Below, piece by piece: positions 6,023 to 14,370 of a stretch of 64,000 nt of DNA; the stretch's first letter is position 1; the number at the start of each line of letters is the position of its first letter. Source of the DNA: Longimicrobium sp. (GTDB lineage Bacteria; Gemmatimonadota; Gemmatimonadetes; Longimicrobiales; Longimicrobiaceae); the NCBI GenBank assembly GCA_036389795.1, contig DASVWD010000096.1:1-64000 (forward strand), read 5' to 3'. The position numbers and the translations under genes were made by a program. The notes below the pieces were generated by a model. It was not told the DNA's origin, ran no database searches, and was given only the letters and a program-made list of their open reading frames with translations.

Positions 6023-6522
6023 CGGCGCGACCTCCGCGCGGGGGGGAGACGGGCGACTCTCGGGATAGGCCATCATACGCGATACTTCGTCCACATGCAC
6101 CGAATCCGGCTGAAGACCGGACCAGCCTGGAAGCGGATCTCTTCCACGGGGTCGACGGAGCAACCTGTTTCTCCGTCTCCGCCGCTTCCGTCGACTCGTG
6201 TGATGAACCGACGAGGTTCGGGGATTCACGTGAAAACGGAAGGACGCCATCCCACCACCGCGCCGCGTGACCGCCCGCCACTCCTCCGCGAGCGCCCGCA
6301 CGGGATCGCCTGGGGTCCGAAGCCCTGATTTCGACGCATCGCGAGCTCGCGCGGAGGAGCAGAGGATCGTTCAGGTACAGGCCCTGAAAAGTCTCACCGG
6401 AGACACGGAGAACCCCTTTCGGTCCCCTGTGTCTCCGTGTGACTCCGATCCGTTCGGGACCAGGACGATGCTCCGCAATCGATCGTGCAGAAGGATTTCA
6501 TCCTCGCGAGCCGGTGTAGCGG
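6023..6522. repeat. Gene-free divergent interval with two R3-type inverted repeats
   Basis: Two family R3 elements lie here. One at 6148-6205 reads GGGGTCGACGGAG ... CTTCCGTCGACTCGTGTGA. The other at 6390-6455 reads TCTCACCGGAGACACGGAG ... CTCCGTGTGACTCC. The same motif is found near 4130 and 15676. No gene is supported between the SpoIID-domain gene and the first precursor promoter. Confidence 0.55.
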
Positions 6523-6551
6523 TTGTTTCTGAAGCTCGCCGTCGTTATCAT
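6523..6551 (+). promoter_or_regulatory. Candidate sigma-70 promoter of precursor gene 1
   Basis: TTGTTT and TATCAT are separated by exactly 17 bases. The arrangement and flanking sequence (GTAGC.GTTG ... GTCGTTATCATCCTCC) are repeated upstream of the second precursor gene with the same spacing, which supports function. It would give a leader of about 160 nt before the ATG at 6720. Confidence 0.55.
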
Positions 6552-6719
6552 CCTCCCGCCGACGTGAAAATCACGCCATTTCTCGCGCCCACGTCTCCCG
6601 GGAACCCTCGCCGGGACGTTTTCCGTGTCCGCGGCCCGCCCGAACCCAGCCGAAGAGACCCCAGGGGACGGTCGGCGCCCGCCGCAGCCGTCCCGACTCC
6701 CTATCCGGAGGAACCTGCA

Positions 6720-6896
6720 ATGGCCCTCGATCCATCCGCGTCCGTGCCCCGCGCCCCGCGCCCGAGCCGCCGCGCATGGGTGCGCCCCGTGGTGGCCGAC
6801 CTGCCGCGCCTGACCGAGCTCACGCTCGCGTCCCCCGACGGCGGCGTCTCCGGCGGCGGCGGCCCGGGCGGGGGCGGCAGCACCGTGATCTTCTGA
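6720..6896 (+). CDS. Putative RiPP precursor peptide 1 (Gly-rich core)
   Basis: The product is a 58-residue peptide. The first 36 residues are rich in Pro, Arg and Ala and end RPVVADLPRLTELTL, which resembles the P-x-L-x-x-L-T leaders of lasso and related RiPPs. Residues 37-58 are a short variable stretch followed by GGGGPGGGGSTVIF. The tail has no Cys, and its only reactive side chains are Asp, Ser and Thr. GGAGG lies eight bases before the ATG. A paralogue with 34 of 36 identical leader residues is encoded at 7375, and a radical SAM gene follows that. The precursor role is inferred from size, leader/core conservation pattern and neighbours. Confidence 0.75.
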   Translation: MALDPSASVPRAPRPSRRAWVRPVVADLPRLTELTLASPDGGVSGGGGPGGGGSTVIF

Positions 6897-6966
6897 ACGG
6901 TCCGCGCTCCCCACGGCGGCGCCGGTCCCGCCCGACCCGCATCCCGGCCGCCCGGACGCGCGGGTG

Positions 6967-7010
6967 GGGCCGCGGCTGTTTCCCAAAGGGGCGGCCCAGG
7001 CTCCTTTCGT
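6967..7010 (+). terminator. Weak hairpin after precursor gene 1
   Basis: GGGCCGC and GCGGCCC pair across a 17-nt loop, followed by a pyrimidine-rich stretch (CTCCTTTCG). It could limit read-through from precursor 1 into the duplicated copy. The support is weak. Confidence 0.3.
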
Positions 7011-7062
7011 AACAGTCCGGCGAGGCCGGCCGCAAGTGTTTCGCGCGAAGCCGATGTAGCAG

Positions 7063-7091
7063 TTGCGTCTAAGGCTTGCGGTCGTTATCAT
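7063..7091 (+). promoter_or_regulatory. Candidate promoter of precursor gene 2, duplicated from the first
   Basis: TTGCGT, a 17-base spacer and TATCAT match the arrangement at 6523-6551, including the downstream CCTCC. It would give a leader of about 275 nt before the ATG at 7375, roughly 115 nt longer than copy 1 because of an insertion or deletion between the copies. Confidence 0.55.
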
Positions 7092-7374
7092 CCTCCTTCG
7101 CGCAGAGGCGGGCGGTGCGGGGTTCCCCACCCGAGTACGCCCGGCGGACGAGCTGCGCATCCCCACGCCAACCGCAGTCCCGGCACGCCGCACACCGGCG
7201 TGAGGATGACGTTTTCCCCGCGCCCTGCGCGTTTCCCGGACCTCTCGCCGAGGCGTCCGCTTGGGCCTCGCCCGCGGCCCGCCCGAACCCAGCCGAAGAG
7301 ATCCCCCAGGACGGGGCCGCGTGGTCAGCGCCCGTCGCAAACCGTCCCGACTCCCCATCCGGAGGAACCCCGCA

Positions 7375-7548
7375 ATGGCCCTTGATCCATCCGCGTCCGC
7401 GCCCCGCGCTCCGCGCCCGAGCCGCCGCGCATGGGTGCGCCCCGAGGTGGCCGACCTGCCGCGCCTGACCGAGCTCACGCTCCAGACCGGCCCCGGCATC
7501 CCCGGCGGCGGCGGCCCCGGCGGGGGCGGCAGCACCGTGATCATCTGA
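7375..7548 (+). CDS. Putative RiPP precursor peptide 2 (Gly-rich core)
   Basis: This 57-residue peptide is paralogous to the one at 6720. The leader differs only at V9A and V24E and again ends in LPRLTELTL. The core begins QTGPGIP and then shares GGGGPGGGGSTVI with copy 1, ending in Ile instead of Phe. GGAGG lies upstream of the ATG. The radical SAM gene starts 15 bases after its stop, with no clear ribosome site of its own, suggesting coupled translation. The conserved leader and the changed core start are the pattern expected of a precursor pair made by one maturation system. Confidence 0.78.
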   Translation: MALDPSASAPRAPRPSRRAWVRPEVADLPRLTELTLQTGPGIPGGGGPGGGGSTVII

Positions 7549-7563
7549 CGCGCCGGGCGCCCC

Positions 7564-8601
7564 ATGCTCCTGGGTCTCGCCATCACCGAGCACTGCAACC
7601 TGCGTTGTCCCCACTGCATCCGGGACGACGTGACCACCGTGCGCAACCTGGACCCCGACCTGATCACCGCCACGGTCGACCAGGCGAAGGTGCTCTTCGG
7701 CGAGGTGGCGGTGAGCATGACCGGGGGCGAGCCCACCATCCACCCCCAGTGGGACCGCATCGTCGCCGCGCTGCACGAGCGCGGGGTGTCGTACCGCTTC
7801 GTGACCAACGGCTGGCACATGCGCCGGCTGATGCCGGGGCTCGACCGGCACCCCCCCGCCGCGGTGCGGGTGTCGCTCTCGGGCGCCGACGAGGCCGTGC
7901 ACGACGCCGAGCGCGGCCGGGGCAGCTTCCGCCGGGTGCTCCTGGCGGTGGCGCTGCTCACCAGCCGCCGGATCCCCACCTCGCTGGGCTTCGTGGTGGA
8001 CCGGCGCGACCGGCACCAGCTGCGCCAGGCGGCCGACCTGGCCGAGGCGCTGGGCGTCAGCCTGCACTTCGCGCTGGCCCAGCCGGTCCCCGGCAGCGCC
8101 GCGCGCGACAGCGACCTGGCGCCCCGGGAGTGGTACGCGGCCCGTGACGAGATCCTGGCGCTCGGCCGCGAGGGGCGGCGCGCGGGGGTGTTCCTGGACT
8201 ACGGGGCGCCCTTCGACGAGGCCGAGCCGCTCTGCGACACCTTCGCCGCGAAGCGCGTCTACGTCGACGCCCGGGGGCGGCTCTCGCTCTGCTGCCAGCT
8301 CTCGGAGTACGGCGACAACGAGCACGACGTGGTGGCGGACCTCAACGAGGTCCCCTTCCTGGAGGCGTGGCCGCGCTACGTGGCCCGCCTCGACGCCCAG
8401 CGGCTCGCCTCGGCCCCGCGGCCCGCGGCAGGCGAGCTGGAGGCGTTCCCCTGCATCCGCTGCGCGCGGGCGCTGGGGAAGATGCAGTGGATGGGGCAGT
8501 ACCCCGACAGCCCGTGGCACGCCGCCGCCGAGCCCCGTGGGCCGGAGGCGCCGCGAAGCCTCGTGACGCTCACGTACCGCAAGAGCGCGCAACCCGTTTG
8601 A
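7564..8601 (+). CDS. Radical SAM protein with SPASM-like C-terminal cysteines (RiPP maturase candidate)
   Basis: The 345-residue protein has the canonical C-x3-C-x2-C motif at Cys11, 15 and 18 (EHCNLRCPHC) and GGEP near 54-57, so it should bind a [4Fe-4S] cluster and cleave S-adenosylmethionine. The C-terminal third has further cysteines at 224, 243/244, 297 and 300 (LCD, LCCQ, PCIRC). This is the spacing style of SPASM/twitch auxiliary-cluster domains used by peptide-modifying enzymes. There is no fused PqqD/RRE domain; a separate PqqD-like protein is encoded at 12667. It lies immediately after precursor 2 and 14 bases before the lipoprotein gene. The modification (epimerisation, cross-link or other) cannot be predicted from sequence. 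Confidence 0.88.
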   Translation: MLLGLAITEHCNLRCPHCIRDDVTTVRNLDPDLITATVDQAKVLFGEVAVSMTGGEPTIHPQWDRIVAALHERGVSYRFVTNGWHMRRLMPGLDRHPPAAVRVSLSGADEAVHDAERGRGSFRRVLLAVALLTSRRIPTSLGFVVDRRDRHQLRQAADLAEALGVSLHFALAQPVPGSAARDSDLAPREWYAARDEILALGREGRRAGVFLDYGAPFDEAEPLCDTFAAKRVYVDARGRLSLCCQLSEYGDNEHDVVADLNEVPFLEAWPRYVARLDAQRLASAPRPAAGELEAFPCIRCARALGKMQWMGQYPDSPWHAAAEPRGPEAPRSLVTLTYRKSAQPV

Positions 8602-8615
8602 CCCGAGGTCTCACC

Positions 8616-10019
8616 ATGCAACTACTCAGGCGGTACCCCGTCCGTACCTCCGCCGCGGTCGCGGGGCTGGCGGGTCTCGCGATCCTGGCCGCGGCGTGCA
8701 CCGACCGGTCGGACCCGGTGGGGCCCACGCCCCCCGGAGGACCGGGCGGCCCGGTGGCCCCGCCCAAGGACCCCTCGCTGATCCAGGTGGTCCAGTGCAG
8801 GGCCGACGTGCGGGCGAAGACGGTCTCGTGCGACCCGGCCGCGCCGCAGGGCGACAAGGCGCCGAGGTACCTGATCGTGGGGGGGCAGGGCGTCTTCGTG
8901 AAGCTCACCTCGAGCAACGTCAACTACGACTCTCCCACCCAGGCGTTCACCTTCGACGTCACGGTGCAGAACCTGATCCCGCAGCCGCTGGGCACCGCCG
9001 ACACCACGGCGGCGCTGGCGCCCGACGCCAACGGGGTGCGGGTGTTCTTCCACCAGGGCCCCACGGTCACCAGCGGCACCGGGACCATCACGGTGGTGGG
9101 CGACGGCACCGACAACTTCACCGCCACCGGCCAGCCGTTCTACAAGTACAGCACGGTGCTGACGCAGGGCCAGATCTCCGCCCCCAAGACGTGGCAGTTC
9201 AACATGCCGCCCTCGGTGGGCAGCTTCAGCTTCCTGCTGTACGTGGCGGCCGCCGTCCCCTACGAGAACGGCTACGTCGAGATCCAGGGCAACTTCAACG
9301 TCCGCGCGGGGCTGGAGCGCCAGCTCACCCCGATCCTGCGCACGGTGGTGGGCACCGTCGACGACGACCCGGTGACCTACACCTGGCTCTCCACCGACTC
9401 CACCCGCGCCAAGGTGAACGGCACCGGCCTGGTGCACGGGCTGCGCTTCGGCACCACCGACATCGCCGTCTTCTCCAGCGACGGGCGCCGGGGGAAGAAG
9501 CCGATGAACGTCTCGCGCGTCCGGCGCTACTGGACGGGCGCGGCGGGGGTCGCCAACTGGGAGAACGGGGCCAACTGGCTCCCCGACAGCGTGAAGCCCG
9601 AGCCGCAGGACACCGCGGTGGTGACCGACACGCTTCCCGTGGCGGGCACGCCCTACCCGGCGCTCTTCCAGAACGAGTCGATCGGCGGGATCGAGGTCGA
9701 GGACCTCACGCCGGGCGGCACGATCCCCTCGATCAGCCTGGGCTCGTTCAACCTGACGGCCAGCGGCAGCGTGTGCACCAACTCCGGGCCGTGCGCGGGC
9801 CCCGTCGTCTTCGGCAGCGCGAGCATCACCAGCTCATCCGGGTCGCTGGTGCTGGTCGGGGTCGCCCAGACCATGAGGGGGGTGTTCCCGCGCACGAACG
9901 TCCTGGCCGCGCCCGGCGGCACCTACTCGATGAACGGGAACGTGACCGTCGACAAGCGCATCCAGGTGCAGGGCGGGCGGATCACCAACACCGGGTTCCG
10001 GCTGCAGCAGACTCCGTAG
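8616..10019 (+). CDS. Large secreted lipoprotein in the RiPP-like cluster
   Basis: The 467-residue protein has a lipoprotein signal ending LAAAC (Cys28), followed by a Pro/Gly linker. The middle contains beta-rich sequence with a bacterial Ig-like flavour (TWLSTDSTRAKVNGTGLVHG, then GTTDIAVFSSDG). The last 150 residues begin YWTGAAGVANWENGANWLP, a repeat type seen in extracellular beta-helix or autotransporter-like proteins. I do not recognise a catalytic domain. Its start is 14 bases after the radical SAM stop, so it is very probably co-transcribed with the precursors and maturase. An outer-membrane receptor, scaffold or immunity role is speculation. Confidence 0.8.
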   Translation: MQLLRRYPVRTSAAVAGLAGLAILAAACTDRSDPVGPTPPGGPGGPVAPPKDPSLIQVVQCRADVRAKTVSCDPAAPQGDKAPRYLIVGGQGVFVKLTSSNVNYDSPTQAFTFDVTVQNLIPQPLGTADTTAALAPDANGVRVFFHQGPTVTSGTGTITVVGDGTDNFTATGQPFYKYSTVLTQGQISAPKTWQFNMPPSVGSFSFLLYVAAAVPYENGYVEIQGNFNVRAGLERQLTPILRTVVGTVDDDPVTYTWLSTDSTRAKVNGTGLVHGLRFGTTDIAVFSSDGRRGKKPMNVSRVRRYWTGAAGVANWENGANWLPDSVKPEPQDTAVVTDTLPVAGTPYPALFQNESIGGIEVEDLTPGGTIPSISLGSFNLTASGSVCTNSGPCAGPVVFGSASITSSSGSLVLVGVAQTMRGVFPRTNVLAAPGGTYSMNGNVTVDKRIQVQGGRITNTGFRLQQTP

Positions 10020-10092
10020 GCCGGCCTGAAGCCACGCGCATCCACGGGGGCGCCGGGCGCCCTCCCAACCCGACGAGAGACGAGAGACGACC

Positions 10093-11241
10093 ATGAACCC
10101 CATGAAGAGGCAGCTCCTCCGCACGCTGGCCGTGGCGGCGCCGATGGCCGCCGCGCTGGCCCTCGCGCCCGCGGCCGCGTCCGCGCAGTCCGACATCCTG
10201 CTGCGCCTGCGCTCGGGCTCGCCGCCGGGCGACCGCTTCCGCGTGGACTCGGCCGGCGGCGTGGTGGCCGTCGGCGAGCTGGGGATCGGCATCATCCCCG
10301 CCTCGGGCGCCGGCTACCGGATGATGTGGTACCCGTTCAAGGCGGCCTTCCGGGCCGGCGGCACCGACGACGGCGGCGCGGGCAACTACTGGGACGACGC
10401 CAACGTGGGCTTCTACTCGTGGGCGGGCGGCAACCAGACCAAGGCCAGCGCCTTCGCCACCTTCGCCTTCGGCGACCAGGTGGAGGTGACGGGGGTGGAC
10501 GCCGCGGGGTTCGGCGGGAGCAACCTGGTGAGCGGCACGGCCGGCTTCAGCACCGGCGCCAGCAACCGCTGCACCGGCTTCGGCTGCGTGGCGATGGGCT
10601 TCACCAACACCGCGGGCGGGCAGGGGGCGGTGGCGATCGGCTACCGGGTGACGGCCGACGCCGACTACGCGGTGGCGCTGGGGCACCGCGCCAGCGCCAA
10701 CGGCCACCCCGGCACCTTCAACGCCGCCGACCAGTCGACCACCGACTCGCTGGAGGCGAGCGCCAACAACCAGTTCAACACCCGCTACGCGGGCGGGTAC
10801 CGGCTCTTCACCAACGCCACCACCACCACGGGCGTGTCGCTGAACGCCGGCGGCAGCTCCTGGAACGTGATCTCCGACCGCAACCGCAAGGAGAACTTCC
10901 TGGGGCTGGACGGCGAGGACATCCTGGCGCGCCTCAGGGGGGTGCCGGTGACGAGCTGGAACTACATCGCCGAGGGGCGGCAGGTGCGCCACATCGGGCC
11001 GATGGCGCAGGACTGGCACGCGGCGTTCGCGCTGAACGACGACCCGCTCACCATCAACTCGGGCGACTTCGACGGCGTGAACCTGGCGGCCATCAAGGCG
11101 CTGGAGGCCCGCACGGCCGAGCTGCGCGCCGCCCAGGAGGAGCTGCGGCGCGCCCAGGCCGAGCTGGCGGCGAAGACGCAGCGGATCGACGACCTGGAGG
11201 CCCGCATCGCGCGGCTGGAAGCGCTGATGCGGCAGCGCTAG
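10093..11241 (+). CDS. Secreted trimeric-type head protein with S74 intramolecular chaperone domain
   Basis: The 382-residue protein has a signal peptide ending in ASAQ. Residues about 150-210 carry YadA-head-like repeats (CVAMGFTNTAGGQGAVAIGY, YAVALGHRAS). Near residue 262 the S74 self-cleaving chaperone signature SDRNRKEN appears, with the Ser-x4-Lys dyad, followed by GPMAQDW. The C terminus (about 335-382) is a heptad-rich coiled coil. S74 domains in phage tail fibres and related proteins fold trimeric beta structures and then cut themselves off. It sits 73 bases after the lipoprotein gene and ends at a strong terminator, so it closes the first transcription unit of the cluster. Confidence 0.85.
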   Translation: MNPMKRQLLRTLAVAAPMAAALALAPAAASAQSDILLRLRSGSPPGDRFRVDSAGGVVAVGELGIGIIPASGAGYRMMWYPFKAAFRAGGTDDGGAGNYWDDANVGFYSWAGGNQTKASAFATFAFGDQVEVTGVDAAGFGGSNLVSGTAGFSTGASNRCTGFGCVAMGFTNTAGGQGAVAIGYRVTADADYAVALGHRASANGHPGTFNAADQSTTDSLEASANNQFNTRYAGGYRLFTNATTTTGVSLNAGGSSWNVISDRNRKENFLGLDGEDILARLRGVPVTSWNYIAEGRQVRHIGPMAQDWHAAFALNDDPLTINSGDFDGVNLAAIKALEARTAELRAAQEELRRAQAELAAKTQRIDDLEARIARLEALMRQR

Positions 11242-11265
11242 CGGTCCGCGGGGGCTGTATCCCCG

Positions 11266-11305
11266 GCGGCGGGGGGCGCACGGCGCCCCCCGCCGCTGTT
11301 TTAAC
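11266..11305 (+). terminator. Strong intrinsic terminator after the S74 protein gene
   Basis: A perfect 13-bp stem (GCGGCGGGGGGCG / CGCCCCCCGCCGC) with a 5-nt loop is followed by TGTTTTAAC. It separates the precursor/radical SAM unit from the maturation-gene unit starting at 11542. Confidence 0.85.
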
Positions 11306-11328
11306 TGCGGTGCGAAGCGCTGAGTGCC

Positions 11329-11395
11329 GGGTGCTGAAGGTGCGAGGCACGGAGCACGCCACTCACGCACTTTCGCACTTCGCACCTGTCCCACC
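11329..11395. repeat. Family R4 repeat (TGCGAA / TTCGCAC words)
   Basis: GGTGCGAGGCACGGAG and CACGCACTTTCGCACTTCGCAC face one another. The same words occur near 4245, 14390, 33425, 39451-39560 and 63885. The promoter for the unit starting at 11542 should lie between here and that start. Confidence 0.5.
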
Positions 11396-11541
11396 CCGCC
11401 GTCACGCCCCCGCCCCCGCGCGCGTTCTTCCGCACCGGGGGCTGGTGCAAAGTGCGGACAGGCCCCAACTTTCAACGCGGGGCGGACATCCGGACCGTCC
11501 GCCCCTCTCCGACCTCGAATCGCGCACCCCCGCAGGCCTCC

Positions 11542-12657
11542 ATGTCCATCCGCTTCCTCTCCCGCTCCCTCGCCGCCCCGGCGGCGGTCGCGCTCGCCCT
11601 CGCGCTCGGCGGCTGTGAAGGCGGCGGCCCCACCGACCTGGACCGGCCGCTCTCGCTGCAGGTGCAGGGCCGGCTGGAGCGCGGCTACGTGGTGACGGTG
11701 ACGGCGAGCGCCGAGGGCGCGCCGGTGCCCGACGCCGTGCTCACGCTCTCGCCCGCCGACGCCGGCGAGCTGCTGGGCGGCGGCCGGGTGCGGCTGCTGC
11801 GCGCGGGTCAGCTCACCGTCAACGCCAGCGCGCCCAACCGCGTGGGGACCACCACGGTCACGGTGGCCGCGCCGCCGGTGGTATTCTTCGACAAGCTGGA
11901 CGGGGGCAACCGCGACATCTGGCGCGTGGACCTGGACGGGCAGAACCTGACCCGGCTCACCACCGACCTGGGCGACGACCAGGACCCCACCGTGGCGCGC
12001 GACCGGGTGGTGTTCGTGAGCTACCGCGCCGGCAACGCGGAGCTGTACTCCATGCCGCTCACCGGGGGCGAGACGCGGCTCACCACCACCACGGCCAACG
12101 AGACCACCCCCTCGCTCTCGCCCGACGGGGCGCGCCTGGCCTACGCCTACGACGCCTCGGGGGTCACCAAGCTGTGGACGGCGGCCGGCAACGGCACCGG
12201 CGCCGAGCGCGCCACCGCGAGCTTCGGCTTCTCGGGGTCGATCGAGACCTCGCCGTCGTGGGCGGCCACGGGGAACCGGCTGGTGTTCGTGGCCACCAAC
12301 ACGGGCTCGGCCGACCTGTACGACTTCCCCATCCCGGGGACGCCGGCCCCGGTGGCGGGCTCCACCGCGGCCGAGGTGGAGCCGGCGTACAGCGCCGACG
12401 GGCGGATCGCCTTCGCCTCGAACCGCCCGGGGAGCAACGGCACCGACGTGTGGATGGTGCGCGTCTCCAGCGGCGAGGTGTCGCGCCTGACCACCGACGC
12501 GGGCTCCGAGGTGCAGCCGGCCTGGACGCCCGACGGCCGGCTGGTGTACGTGGCGGCCGGGCGCCTGCGCTGGCTGGACCCCGCCGACCCCGCGGCCGGC
12601 GGCGCCATCGAGACCGGGCCGGGCACCGCGCAGCGGCCCGCGGTCCTTCCCAACTGA
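11542..12657 (+). CDS. TolB-like beta-propeller lipoprotein
   Basis: The 371-residue protein has a lipoprotein signal (LALALGGC, Cys25). Residues about 30-110 form an Ig-like domain. The rest consists of PD40/TolB-type repeats with the words DIWRVDLDGQNLTRLT, SLSPDGARLAYAYD, YSADGRIAFASNRPG and WTPDGRLVYV. Such propellers are periplasmic or outer-membrane-anchored binding modules. It is the first gene of the unit carrying the PqqD-like, B2-like and kinase-like genes, with only nine bases to the next start, so a link to the RiPP-like pathway is suggested by operon position only. Confidence 0.82.
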   Translation: MSIRFLSRSLAAPAAVALALALGGCEGGGPTDLDRPLSLQVQGRLERGYVVTVTASAEGAPVPDAVLTLSPADAGELLGGGRVRLLRAGQLTVNASAPNRVGTTTVTVAAPPVVFFDKLDGGNRDIWRVDLDGQNLTRLTTDLGDDQDPTVARDRVVFVSYRAGNAELYSMPLTGGETRLTTTTANETTPSLSPDGARLAYAYDASGVTKLWTAAGNGTGAERATASFGFSGSIETSPSWAATGNRLVFVATNTGSADLYDFPIPGTPAPVAGSTAAEVEPAYSADGRIAFASNRPGSNGTDVWMVRVSSGEVSRLTTDAGSEVQPAWTPDGRLVYVAAGRLRWLDPADPAAGGAIETGPGTAQRPAVLPN

Positions 12658-12666
12658 CGGCGCCGG

Positions 12667-12960
12667 ATGAGCGAGAAGCGCTACGCGGTGCCCGACGAGG
12701 TGCTGGCCGCCCACCTGGACGGCGAGGCGGTGCTCCTGCACATGGACACCAAGGACTACTTCCGCCTGAACGCCACGGCGGCGGTGGTGTGGAAGGGGCT
12801 GGAGCGCGGGCTGGACCGCGAGGAGATCGTGTCGGAGATGTTGAAGTACGCCGAGGCGCACGACATGGACGTGGACGCGGCTACCGCCGGGGCCGACCTG
12901 GACGCGCTCCTGGGCGAGCTGGAGCAGCGCCGGCTGATCGTGGAGGCGGCCGCCGGATGA
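12667..12960 (+). CDS. PqqD-family RiPP recognition element protein (lasso B1-like)
   Basis: The 97-residue protein matches PqqD/RRE proteins in length and in the N-terminal pattern V-L-A-A-H-L-D-G-E-A-V-L-L-H-M-D-T-K-D-Y-F-x-L-N followed by A-V-V-W-K-G-L. It ends in a short helix (LLGELEQRRLIVEA). PqqD-like proteins bind precursor leaders and present them to maturation enzymes. The stop codon overlaps the start of the next gene (ATGA). Here it would be expected to bind the LPRLTELTL-type leaders encoded at 6720 and 7375, though it is in a separate transcription unit about 5 kb away. Confidence 0.88.
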   Translation: MSEKRYAVPDEVLAAHLDGEAVLLHMDTKDYFRLNATAAVVWKGLERGLDREEIVSEMLKYAEAHDMDVDAATAGADLDALLGELEQRRLIVEAAAG

Positions 12961-13352
12961 CGCGCCGGCACGCGGCGGCGCTGGTGGGGGCCTGGGCCGC
13001 GCTCCGGGTCCCCTTCTGGCTGCGGGGCCGGCGGCTGCAGGCGCTGCTCCGCCCGTCGGCGCCCGCGCGCGCGGACGCCGCGGTCCCGCGCGGGGCGCTG
13101 GGCGGGGCCATGCGGACGGTGGCGCTCCTGGCCCGCGTTCCCGGCTCGCCGTGGCGGAACACCTGCCTGTACCGCAGCGTGGCCGAGTGCCTGGTGCTGC
13201 GCCGCTACGGCGTGCCCGCGCAGCTCCGTATCGGGGTGAAGAGCGAGGGCGAGGGGGGCGAGATCGCCGCCCACGCCTGGGTGGCGCGCCCCGGCGACCC
13301 CGCCCTGGCGGCCTCGCCCGGCGGGCACGTCCCCCTGGTGCTGCGCGCTTGA
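12957..13352 (+). CDS. Lasso peptide B2-like transglutaminase-fold leader protease
   Basis: The 131-residue protein has the B2-type cysteine protease triad in order: Cys70 in WRNTCLYRS, His106 in IAAHAWVA and an Asp at 114. The flanking words LRRYGVPAQLRIGV are also typical. In lasso systems this enzyme removes the leader after recognition by the B1/PqqD partner, which here is encoded directly upstream with a 4-nt overlap. The expected third lasso gene, an asparagine-synthetase-like cyclase, is absent, so the enzyme may simply trim the leader. It overlaps the following kinase-like gene by 4 nt. Confidence 0.88.
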   Translation: MTRRHAAALVGAWAALRVPFWLRGRRLQALLRPSAPARADAAVPRGALGGAMRTVALLARVPGSPWRNTCLYRSVAECLVLRRYGVPAQLRIGVKSEGEGGEIAAHAWVARPGDPALAASPGGHVPLVLRA

Positions 13353-14320
13353 GCGGTCCGGCCGTCCTCTCCCTCCTGGCGGACCACGCCCTGCGGCTGG
13401 AGGCCGACCCCGCCCTCCTCCCCCTCCTCCGCCGCTGGCTCCCCCTCCTCCCCTACGACGAATCGCCGCCCGACCCCGCTCCGCCCGGCGCCGCGATCCG
13501 CGTGCGGCGCGGCGAGGCGTCCATCCCGCCCCGGCCCGAGGGTCCGCCCCTGCTGCGCCTGGGCCCGGTGGACGCATGGGTCGACGGAGGAGTCCTCGAG
13601 CTGCGCGGCGACGGCGGGTGCGCGGGGCGGGGCGAGCTGGAGGACGGCTCGGTGGTGCTGGTTGCGCCGCGGGAGACGGAAGGCGCGGCGGCCGCCGCCT
13701 GGGACCTCTACTCGATGGCCACGCTCTCCGCGGCGCTCCTGCTGGGGCGGATGGGGCGGGCGCTGGTGCACGCGGCGGCCGTGGTGGAGCCCGGCGGCGG
13801 GTGCCTGCTGCTGGCGGGCGACACGCACGCGGGGAAGTCGACCACGGCCGTGAACCTGATCGGCGCCGGGTGGGAGTTCGTCTCCGACGACCACGTGGTG
13901 CTGTATCGCGACCCCGGGTCGGGCGCGGTGCGGGTGGAGGGGTGGCCGCGCCGCTTCCACCTGGACGAAGGGTGGGAGGAGGGAGAGCCGGGACGCCGCC
14001 GCGGCGAGATCGACCCGCACGAGCGCTGGCCCGGCCGCTGGCGGCGCACCGCCCCGCTCGCCGGCCTCCTCTTCCCGCGCGTCGAGGCCGATCTTCCCAC
14101 CGCGCTCTCCCCGCTCCCGGCCTCGGAGGCGCTGGCCGGGCTGCTGCGCCAGTCTCCCTGGCTGCTGGCGGACCGCGGCGCGGCGGCCGGGGTGCTGGAG
14201 CTGCTCACCGCCGCCTGCCGGCGCCCCGCCTCCGCGCTGCGCCTGGGCCGCGACACCTACCGCGACGCCGGCCGCCTGGCCGGCGTACTGCGCCCCGCGC
14301 CCGCGCCGCCCGGGCGGTGA
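13349..14320 (+). CDS. HPr-kinase-like protein of RiPP clusters
   Basis: The protein has 323 residues if the TTG overlapping the upstream stop (TTGA) is the start, and that overlap is why I chose it. The kinase core shows the P-loop GDTHAGKST at 157-165, the following strand FVSDDHVVL with two acidic residues, and RFHLDEG. The N-terminal 120 residues are divergent. HPr-kinase homologues such as the paeninodin kinase phosphorylate a Ser at the C terminus of lasso precursors. Both cores here end in Ser-Thr-Val-Ile-Phe/Ile. A related tailoring role is therefore plausible but not shown. The gene ends the operon, before a terminator hairpin. Confidence 0.8.
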   Translation: MSGPAVLSLLADHALRLEADPALLPLLRRWLPLLPYDESPPDPAPPGAAIRVRRGEASIPPRPEGPPLLRLGPVDAWVDGGVLELRGDGGCAGRGELEDGSVVLVAPRETEGAAAAAWDLYSMATLSAALLLGRMGRALVHAAAVVEPGGGCLLLAGDTHAGKSTTAVNLIGAGWEFVSDDHVVLYRDPGSGAVRVEGWPRRFHLDEGWEEGEPGRRRGEIDPHERWPGRWRRTAPLAGLLFPRVEADLPTALSPLPASEALAGLLRQSPWLLADRGAAAGVLELLTAACRRPASALRLGRDTYRDAGRLAGVLRPAPAPPGR

Positions 14321-14337
14321 CCGCCGCACAGTCGAAG

Positions 14338-14370
14338 AAGGCCGCGCCCCCGGGGGAGCGCGGCCTTCCC
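14338..14370. terminator. Bidirectional terminator after the HPr-kinase-like gene
   Basis: AAGGCCGCGC and GCGCGGCCTT form a 10-bp stem around CCCCGGGGGA, itself self-complementary. The hairpin lies between convergent genes. A short R4 repeat (CACTTCGCACTTCGCACTA) fills the rest of the gap up to the stop codon at 14400. Confidence 0.7.

Follow-up and report, generated by a model that had tools for sequence, protein, structure and literature searches.

Lasso peptide clusters of the paeninodin type, which direct the formation of ribosomally synthesized and post-translationally modified peptides (RiPPs), are composed of genes for the precursor (A), a discrete PqqD-like protein (B1), a leader protease (B2), a macrolactam cyclase (C) and a homologue of HPr kinase (K). 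In lasso clusters, the HPr kinase homologues act on the linear precursor, the C-terminal Ser of which they phosphorylate (PMC8498205). PqqD-like discrete RiPP recognition elements (RREs) bind leaders of the YxxP type (PMC12710340), and the Thr at position -2 of the leader is the residue recognized by the B proteins in lasso precursors (PMC10368454). The RRE-Finder survey found, among its "false positives", about 300 discrete lasso-type RREs that co-occur with radical S-adenosylmethionine (SAM) enzymes, and suggested that they possibly represent uncharacterized RiPP classes (PMC7470986); it described no precursors, B2 proteins, HPr kinases or class. Here, a locus of Longimicrobium sp. (Gemmatimonadota) is described that combines PqqD, B2 and HPr kinase homologues with a radical SAM enzyme. 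It is located in the window, i.e., the whole stretch of 64,000 nucleotides that was analyzed (contig DASVWD010000096.1, assembly GCA_036389795.1). The recurrent gene set and a separate clade of its B2 proteins give good support for a distinct RiPP-type system that would operate without a cyclase, as had been proposed in an initial annotation of this DNA. At a probability of roughly 0.7, the PqqD, radical SAM, B2 and HPr-kinase-like proteins form one pathway that acts on Gly-rich precursors. The genes of the system are the following:

6720 to 6896, plus strand: precursor P1, 58 residues, leader ending in AWVRPVVADLPRLTELTL, core ASPDGGVSGGGGPGGGGSTVIF, Shine-Dalgarno sequence at 6707-6712
7375 to 7548, plus strand: precursor P2, 57 residues, leader ending in AWVRPEVADLPRLTELTL, core QTGPGIPGGGGPGGGGSTVII, Shine-Dalgarno sequence at 7361-7366
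7564 to 8601, plus strand: radical SAM maturase, 345 residues (PF04055, 2.6e-20)
12667 to 12960, plus strand: PqqD-like discrete RRE of the lasso B1 type, predicted leader-binding chaperone (PF05402, 1.7e-13; NF033530, 5e-13, 49 bits, below the cut-off of 70)
12957 to 13352, plus strand: B2-type leader protease with transglutaminase fold and Cys70/His106 (NF033537 lasso_biosyn_B2, 54.9 bits, cut-off 33)
13349 to 14320, plus strand: HPr-kinase-like protein, peptide kinase candidate (weak Hpr_kinase_C match; Walker A motif GDTHAGKS, SDD)

The contig, designated C96, is one of 285 in a genome of 7.5 Mb with a G+C content of about 72%. The genes for PqqD, B2 and the HPr-kinase-like protein overlap (12667-14320), and both precursor genes have a GGAGGA Shine-Dalgarno motif 7-8 nt upstream of the ATG. 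The paired precursors of 57-58 residues and the four types of proteins had been recognized in the initial annotation, and Pfam and NCBIfam matches as well as sequence motifs verified the proteins, the match of the kinase being weak. The residues Cys70, His106 and Asp114 had been listed for B2; the first two are conserved in all 24 relatives, Asp114 is not kept in its alignment column. The Walker A motif of the kinase is also conserved. The reported absence of a cyclase from the locus was confirmed by tblastn and profile searches; an ABC exporter, likewise reported as absent, was not recognized among the called genes of the locus, no direct search for one having been made.

The system resembles the paeninodin-type clusters in its discrete PqqD, its B2, its HPr kinase homologue, a YxxP-like leader motif and the Thr at position -2. 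It differs from them in that it has a radical SAM enzyme instead of a macrolactam cyclase, no constant exporter, no Asp or Glu as ring acceptor in the window cores, and B2 proteins of a separate clade. The same combination of HPr-kinase-like, PqqD-like and radical SAM proteins is represented in NCBIfam by SynChlorMet (ScmC, ScmD and ScmE/ScmF, respectively), and ScmF is the best NCBIfam match of the radical SAM enzyme of the window. However, SynChlorMet has two radical SAM enzymes, whereas the present system has one plus a B2, and all scores are below the cut-offs of the ScmC, ScmD, ScmE and ScmF equivalogs, most of them by far (69 of 400 bits for ScmF, 18 of 100 for ScmD and 22 of 125 for ScmC). 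With sactipeptides and ranthipeptides the system shares a radical SAM maturase with an RRE, but the window cores contain no Cys, and the radical SAM enzyme is twitch-like and does not have the full seven-Cys SPASM motif. No paper on SynChlorMet, on lasso peptides together with a radical SAM enzyme, an HPr kinase and PqqD, or on Gemmatimonadetes together with radical SAM and lasso was found in the open-licence literature, and the available parts of a 2025 RRE paper and of an Antarctic-soil paper mention neither an HPr kinase nor the present gene set. No description of the gene set was thus found in the open-licence literature, the RRE-Finder remark (PMC7470986) being closest to it; a description may exist elsewhere.

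Of 395 Gemmatimonadota genomes, 18 (from 12 of 138 genera) carry the radical SAM gene and 21 were matched by a profile of the precursor, 15 genomes being common to both groups. Because the precursor profile matches so few genomes, and largely those with the radical SAM gene, its signal is not due to chance. In three genomes with the radical SAM gene only (G016, G102 and G386), divergent leader-bearing open reading frames (ORFs) were found nearby. Genes for the precursor, the radical SAM enzyme, PqqD, B2 and the HPr-kinase-like protein are linked in genomes of different families of the phylum. The recurrent order is precursor, radical SAM enzyme, in some cases secreted lipoproteins with a domain named lipoN and Peptidase_S74 proteins, then a beta-propeller protein, PqqD, B2 and the kinase, with strand switches in some genomes and never with a cyclase. 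In two genomes (G001 and G004) precursor, PqqD, B2 and kinase genes are directly adjacent. Many of the loci are contig fragments; the numbers of absent PqqD, B2 and kinase genes are thus upper bounds, and those of present ones lower bounds.

The initial annotation had regarded the system as peculiar to its lineage, which did not hold. In a scan of GTDB genomes, the Gemmatimonadota orthologues were followed by 17 loci whose radical SAM enzymes are 28-36% identical along most of their length; these loci stem from KSB1, Acidobacteriota, Myxococcota, Nitrospirota, anammox Planctomycetota, Deltaproteobacteria and unclassified bins. The HPr-kinase-like gene was present at 15 of these 17 loci, PqqD at 15, B2 at 10 and a cyclase at none, mostly within 1-3 kb. 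In the control, the next 58 radical SAM loci of the same scan, the respective numbers were 6, 12, 0 and 1. For the loci of Brocadia and Nitrospira, NCBIfam also scored B2 above the cut-off. Most of the 17 radical SAM genes adjoin precursor ORFs with an FxxPxL...T leader. The leader logic is the same (F/Y-x-x-P-x-L ... T-x, followed by the core), but the cores are different, e.g., VTAAFFGTFRPK, and those of Brocadia and Nitrospira are shorter (e.g., ending in ITAGFFGPFSP). By these sequence comparisons, the gene set appears to recur in at least six phyla, including Gemmatimonadota. The recurrence of precursor and radical SAM genes with the three other genes and without a cyclase was the check that the initial annotation had called for; a cyclase (PF00733) was found at 0 of 38 cassette loci (0 of 21 in Gemmatimonadota and 0 of 17 elsewhere), a count that covers the available stretches, except for the genomes checked as a whole.

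P1 and P2 matched no model of Pfam or NCBIfam. They show the architecture of RiPP precursors, i.e., a short encoded peptide, a conserved leader and a separately evolving core. The aligned precursors share the leader motif WxxPxV..LPRL or WxxPxV...LTL with Thr at position -2, a lasso-like feature, and by analogy the core would begin after ..LTL. The cores have 15-25 residues, 36% of which are Gly, and follow the pattern [QA]-T-G-x-x-I/V-x-G-G...G-G-S-T-V-F/I. Among the 37 Gemmatimonadota cores, all have Ser or Thr within the last seven residues, 33 have Val within the last four, and 17 end with Val-Phe. The initial annotation had noted that the cores contain neither Cys nor a cross-link partner. 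This is true for the window, where P1 and P2 have no Cys, P2 no aromatic residue and P1 only the terminal Phe. It is not true for the family as a whole, in which four of the 37 cores have two Cys (e.g., QTGGGIPCGSSTVCP), 26 contain an aromatic residue or His, and many end with Val-Phe, as stated above. Sactipeptide or ranthipeptide chemistry was set aside, as P1 and P2 have no Cys donors, just the four cores have two, and the seven-Cys SPASM motif is missing; formation of triceptides (three-residue cyclophanes) was also set aside, because no aromatic residue with an X-X partner occurs in the window cores, despite the 26 family cores with an aromatic residue or His.

P1 and P2 lie in copies of a ~650-bp segment that was duplicated in tandem (a 166-nt repeat at 84% and three upstream repeats). 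Two further precursors of the same type are encoded on contig C231 of the same genome, without maturation genes nearby, and one of them encodes exactly the core of P2, with synonymous codon changes only. Three genomes contain two dispersed precursors with the same core of 21 residues but otherwise diverged sequences. The codons of these cores show 11 differences, each of them synonymous (11/11; p ~3e-6 if unconstrained); pN/pS of the leader segment is 0.44. Identical dispersed cores with synonymous changes only point to selection that acts on the core peptide. Gene conversion may have contributed to the identity, but alone it would not favor synonymous changes. According to the initial annotation, homologous peptides without maturation genes would speak against its proposal. 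Such peptides do exist locally, on C231, but they do not contradict it, because such genomes encode the machinery elsewhere. A fifth leader-bearing ORF of the genome (contig C105; L010, ~9142-9369) has the same leader as the precursors, RRPWSRPALVLLPRLTELTL, and an unrelated core, QTAPFVGSLSSTGKFVLPDDGSRLA.

The radical SAM enzyme contains the CxxxCxxC motif and C224-x13-G238-x4-C243C244 ... C297xxC300, which are invariant in 11 aligned relatives. Outside of CxxxCxxC, only C224, C243, C244, C297 and C300 are invariant, and the full seven-Cys SPASM motif is not present; judged from its Cys residues, the enzyme would fit better to the twitch type with a single auxiliary cluster than to a seven-Cys SPASM protein. 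An AlphaFold2 model (pLDDT 83.7) matched DesII, BlsE, SuiB, SkfB and PqqE in a search of PDB folds, with no clear nearest structure. Possible reactions, by analogy, are formation of cyclopropylglycine from Val as in TvgB, epimerization, or a mycofactocin-like chemistry at the C-terminus.

By analogy to known families, the pathway would involve binding of the W/Y/F-x-x-P-x-V/L motif of the leader by PqqD, a discrete RRE, which would present the core to the radical SAM enzyme. The latter would modify this core, which is short and rich in Gly; the most plausible site is the conserved Ser/Thr-Thr-Val-(Phe/Ile) segment at the C-terminus or its vicinity. The HPr kinase homologue is predicted to phosphorylate Ser or Thr of the same segment. 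B2 would cut one residue past the conserved Thr at position -2 (...L-T-L, followed by the core), and a peptide of 15-25 residues would result. A single maturation locus may serve several dispersed precursors per genome. The RRE binding, the cleavage site and the role of the kinase are taken from the known families, in contrast to the gene set, its conservation, the leader and core architecture, the absence of a cyclase and the selection on the core, which were read from the sequences.

Several other explanations were weighed against this pathway. A lasso pathway could be served in trans by a cyclase of another cluster. Among the four B2 genes of the genome, only that of the window has no cyclase beside it; the others belong to ordinary lasso clusters with cyclases (contigs C136, C86 and C71). 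In addition, PqqD, B2 and the leader with its Thr at -2 are of the lasso type. However, the genome of Brocadia pituitae, complete according to its record title, contains the cassette but nowhere a match to PF00733 (Asn_synthase), so that no cyclase can act in trans there, and in G072 (99% complete, 5 contigs) the sole Asn_synthase match is weak and comprises 63 residues. In a tree of B2 proteins, a branch with a support of 98/91 separated 25 cyclase-free from 17 lasso B2s; the lasso set was from Gemmatimonadota only, the bootstrap was not fully settled, and one of five unclassified B2s was on the cyclase-free side. Lasso cores would have Gly, Ala, Ser or Cys at position 1 and an Asp or Glu acceptor at positions 7-9; the window cores (ASPDGGVSG and QTGPGIPGG) have no such acceptor, although 10 of the 37 family cores do. 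Together with the missing cyclase at all cassette loci, this makes a trans-acting cyclase very improbable, and lasso membership was set aside. It is also highly unlikely that the precursor/radical SAM pair and the PqqD-B2-kinase trio are unrelated neighbors, the latter with another substrate. In the window, 4 kb and three genes for secreted proteins separate the two; in G045 they are on opposite strands, and in G371 the kinase and B2 genes are opposite to the radical SAM gene. In other phyla, however, the genes are mostly close together, the precursor gene directly abuts PqqD in G001 (L189) and neighbors it in G004, and the kinase gene abuts leader-bearing ORFs in satellite loci.

The remaining explanations concern the product. 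In a pathway like that of mycofactocin (MftA/B/C), the radical SAM enzyme would act on the C-terminal Val-Phe by decarboxylation, and later steps would release a small redox molecule. Both systems have a PqqD-like partner, which is discrete here, a SPASM-type radical SAM enzyme and hydrophobic-aromatic residues at the C-terminus, where ...TVF is strongly conserved, and MftC was the first or second NCBIfam match for three of four radical SAM enzymes tested (67-89 bits) and the fifth for the other. Yet the scores do not come near the equivalog cut-off (67 of 265 bits for the window), the window and sister cores end with VII, VIF, VIA, VVP, VIP or VCP, conservation spans the whole Gly-rich core and not the C-terminus alone, B2 and kinase genes are present in addition, and neither homologues of MftD/E/F nor other Mft genes were recognized among the genes read by hand. 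Such a pathway has a low probability, similar to that of unrelated units. Conversion of the conserved Val to cyclopropylglycine, or its epimerization, a variant of the cyclase-independent pathway, is rather doubtful, too, albeit less so. TvgB turns Val into cyclopropylglycine in TVGG repeats (PMC9062424), and Val is frequent near the C-terminus, but four cores have none among the last four residues.

Some observations weigh against the cyclase-independent pathway with a radical SAM enzyme at its center. The fold matches of the radical SAM enzyme are generic and its best NCBIfam matches far below cut-off, so its chemistry cannot be read from the sequence; the product is predicted from the genes, and the chemistry given above is a proposal. 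The two parts of the window locus are separated, B2 is missing at some loci, and no exporter is constant. Two genomes (G001 and G015) have precursors and PqqD-B2-kinase genes, and no radical SAM gene was found; both loci are at contig ends, and a loss in assembly is possible. In G004, no radical SAM gene is present within a contiguous 12 kb around the precursor, PqqD, B2, kinase and ABC transporter genes. The profiles were home-built and iterated on loci that included those tallied, which inflated the E-values; independent NCBIfam calls agreed with them for the window and the three loci tested. The G004 locus (L233:3073-6996) encodes the core QNGSTGPIECDPDFPETCGV and has no cyclase gene either.

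The window locus contains further features:

6509 to 6556, plus strand: 48-nt element upstream of P1, within the duplicated upstream region (repeat search)
7049 to 7096, plus strand: second copy of the 48-nt element, 5' of P2, 83% against the first (repeat search)
8616 to 10019, plus strand: secreted lipoprotein with the unclassified all-beta domain lipoN (8775-9272) and Big_2 (Pfam), precursor-adjacent elsewhere too
10093 to 11241, plus strand: secreted protein with a Peptidase_S74 (endosialidase chaperone) domain (Pfam), a frequent but not constant neighbor
11542 to 12657, plus strand: lipoprotein with PD40 beta-propeller (TolB/DPP-IV-N-like), the usual gene 5' of PqqD in Gemmatimonadota

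The gene order is thus P1, P2, radical SAM enzyme, Big_2 lipoprotein, Peptidase_S74 protein, PD40 lipoprotein, PqqD, B2 and HPr-kinase-like protein. The 48-nt element is a possible promoter; in a comparison with the upstream regions of other precursors, sharing was not clearly above the control. The lipoN domain of about 165 residues has no Pfam match. Its model is confident (pLDDT 89.2), and a fold search gave one weak match with low TM-scores and no assignment. The domain recurs beside precursors, including orphan ones (window, L069, L071, L186, L188, L195 and L197), and is fused to propellers in some species. In genomes of family f4, 3/3, 2/3 and 1/2 lipoN copies are near a precursor or radical SAM gene; Longimicrobiaceae have 6-23 copies. 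Plausibly, the lipoN protein may be the partner or the target of the peptide at the cell surface. Display at the envelope, as suggested in the initial annotation, was not supported as stated and is only hinted at by the secreted lipoproteins that recur beside precursors.

Additional observations were made at other loci. In four satellite loci with a kinase gene (L202, L203, L035 at ~15.4-16.4 kb and L036 at ~14.1-15.1 kb), the gene adjoins a leader-bearing ORF (e.g., RQPFVAPRVENAGRLTEITLQLSGGGGL), a 550-residue lipoprotein and S74 proteins in L202 and L203, without radical SAM, PqqD or B2 genes, while a formyltransferase-like gene is located 5' of it in L035 and L036. L056 (4181-6167) contains PqqD followed by a cyclase of the Asn_synthase type, with no B2 in the available stretch, which ends with the contig. 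The three ordinary lasso clusters of the genome are L052, L053 and L054, two of which have paired precursors (e.g., MTEKKPYVAPTVTAHGSAVVQTQGRGGRNLELIGFRGGRPLG). Small Cys-rich ORFs with K(L/I)xL..(L)xVxSF leaders (L009, 3307-3528, minus strand, and 11119-11364, plus strand; L203, 3-242, minus strand) are possibly another family of RiPP precursors in these genomes. In G005 and G006, small secreted proteins rich in Cys (..YDYYYYPCAYRCPGGQGYCSYSGQCRCGYIP) are encoded in tandem close to the cassette (L038, 3661-4103; L039, 1129-1621).

Genes for PqqD, B2 and HPr kinase are routinely annotated as lasso peptide genes. Since they recur here in the company of a radical SAM gene while the cyclase, the defining enzyme of lasso peptides, is missing, this annotation is wrong for the present set. 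The wider proposal, to which we give about even odds, is a RiPP class present in six or more phyla, with anammox planctomycetes and Nitrospira among its carriers. In this class, one core would be the substrate of both a peptide kinase and a radical SAM enzyme, and a lasso-type B2 would remove the leader without a cyclase; in Gemmatimonadota, scattered precursors and one locus would yield an identical, Cys-free, Gly-rich phosphopeptide tied to surface lipoproteins. A compact system of four enzymes with short, mostly Cys-free substrates may offer a route to new radical chemistry, and phosphorylated RiPPs would be expected from environmental bacteria (anammox bacteria, Nitrospira and Gemmatimonadota), the peptide products of which have been little studied.

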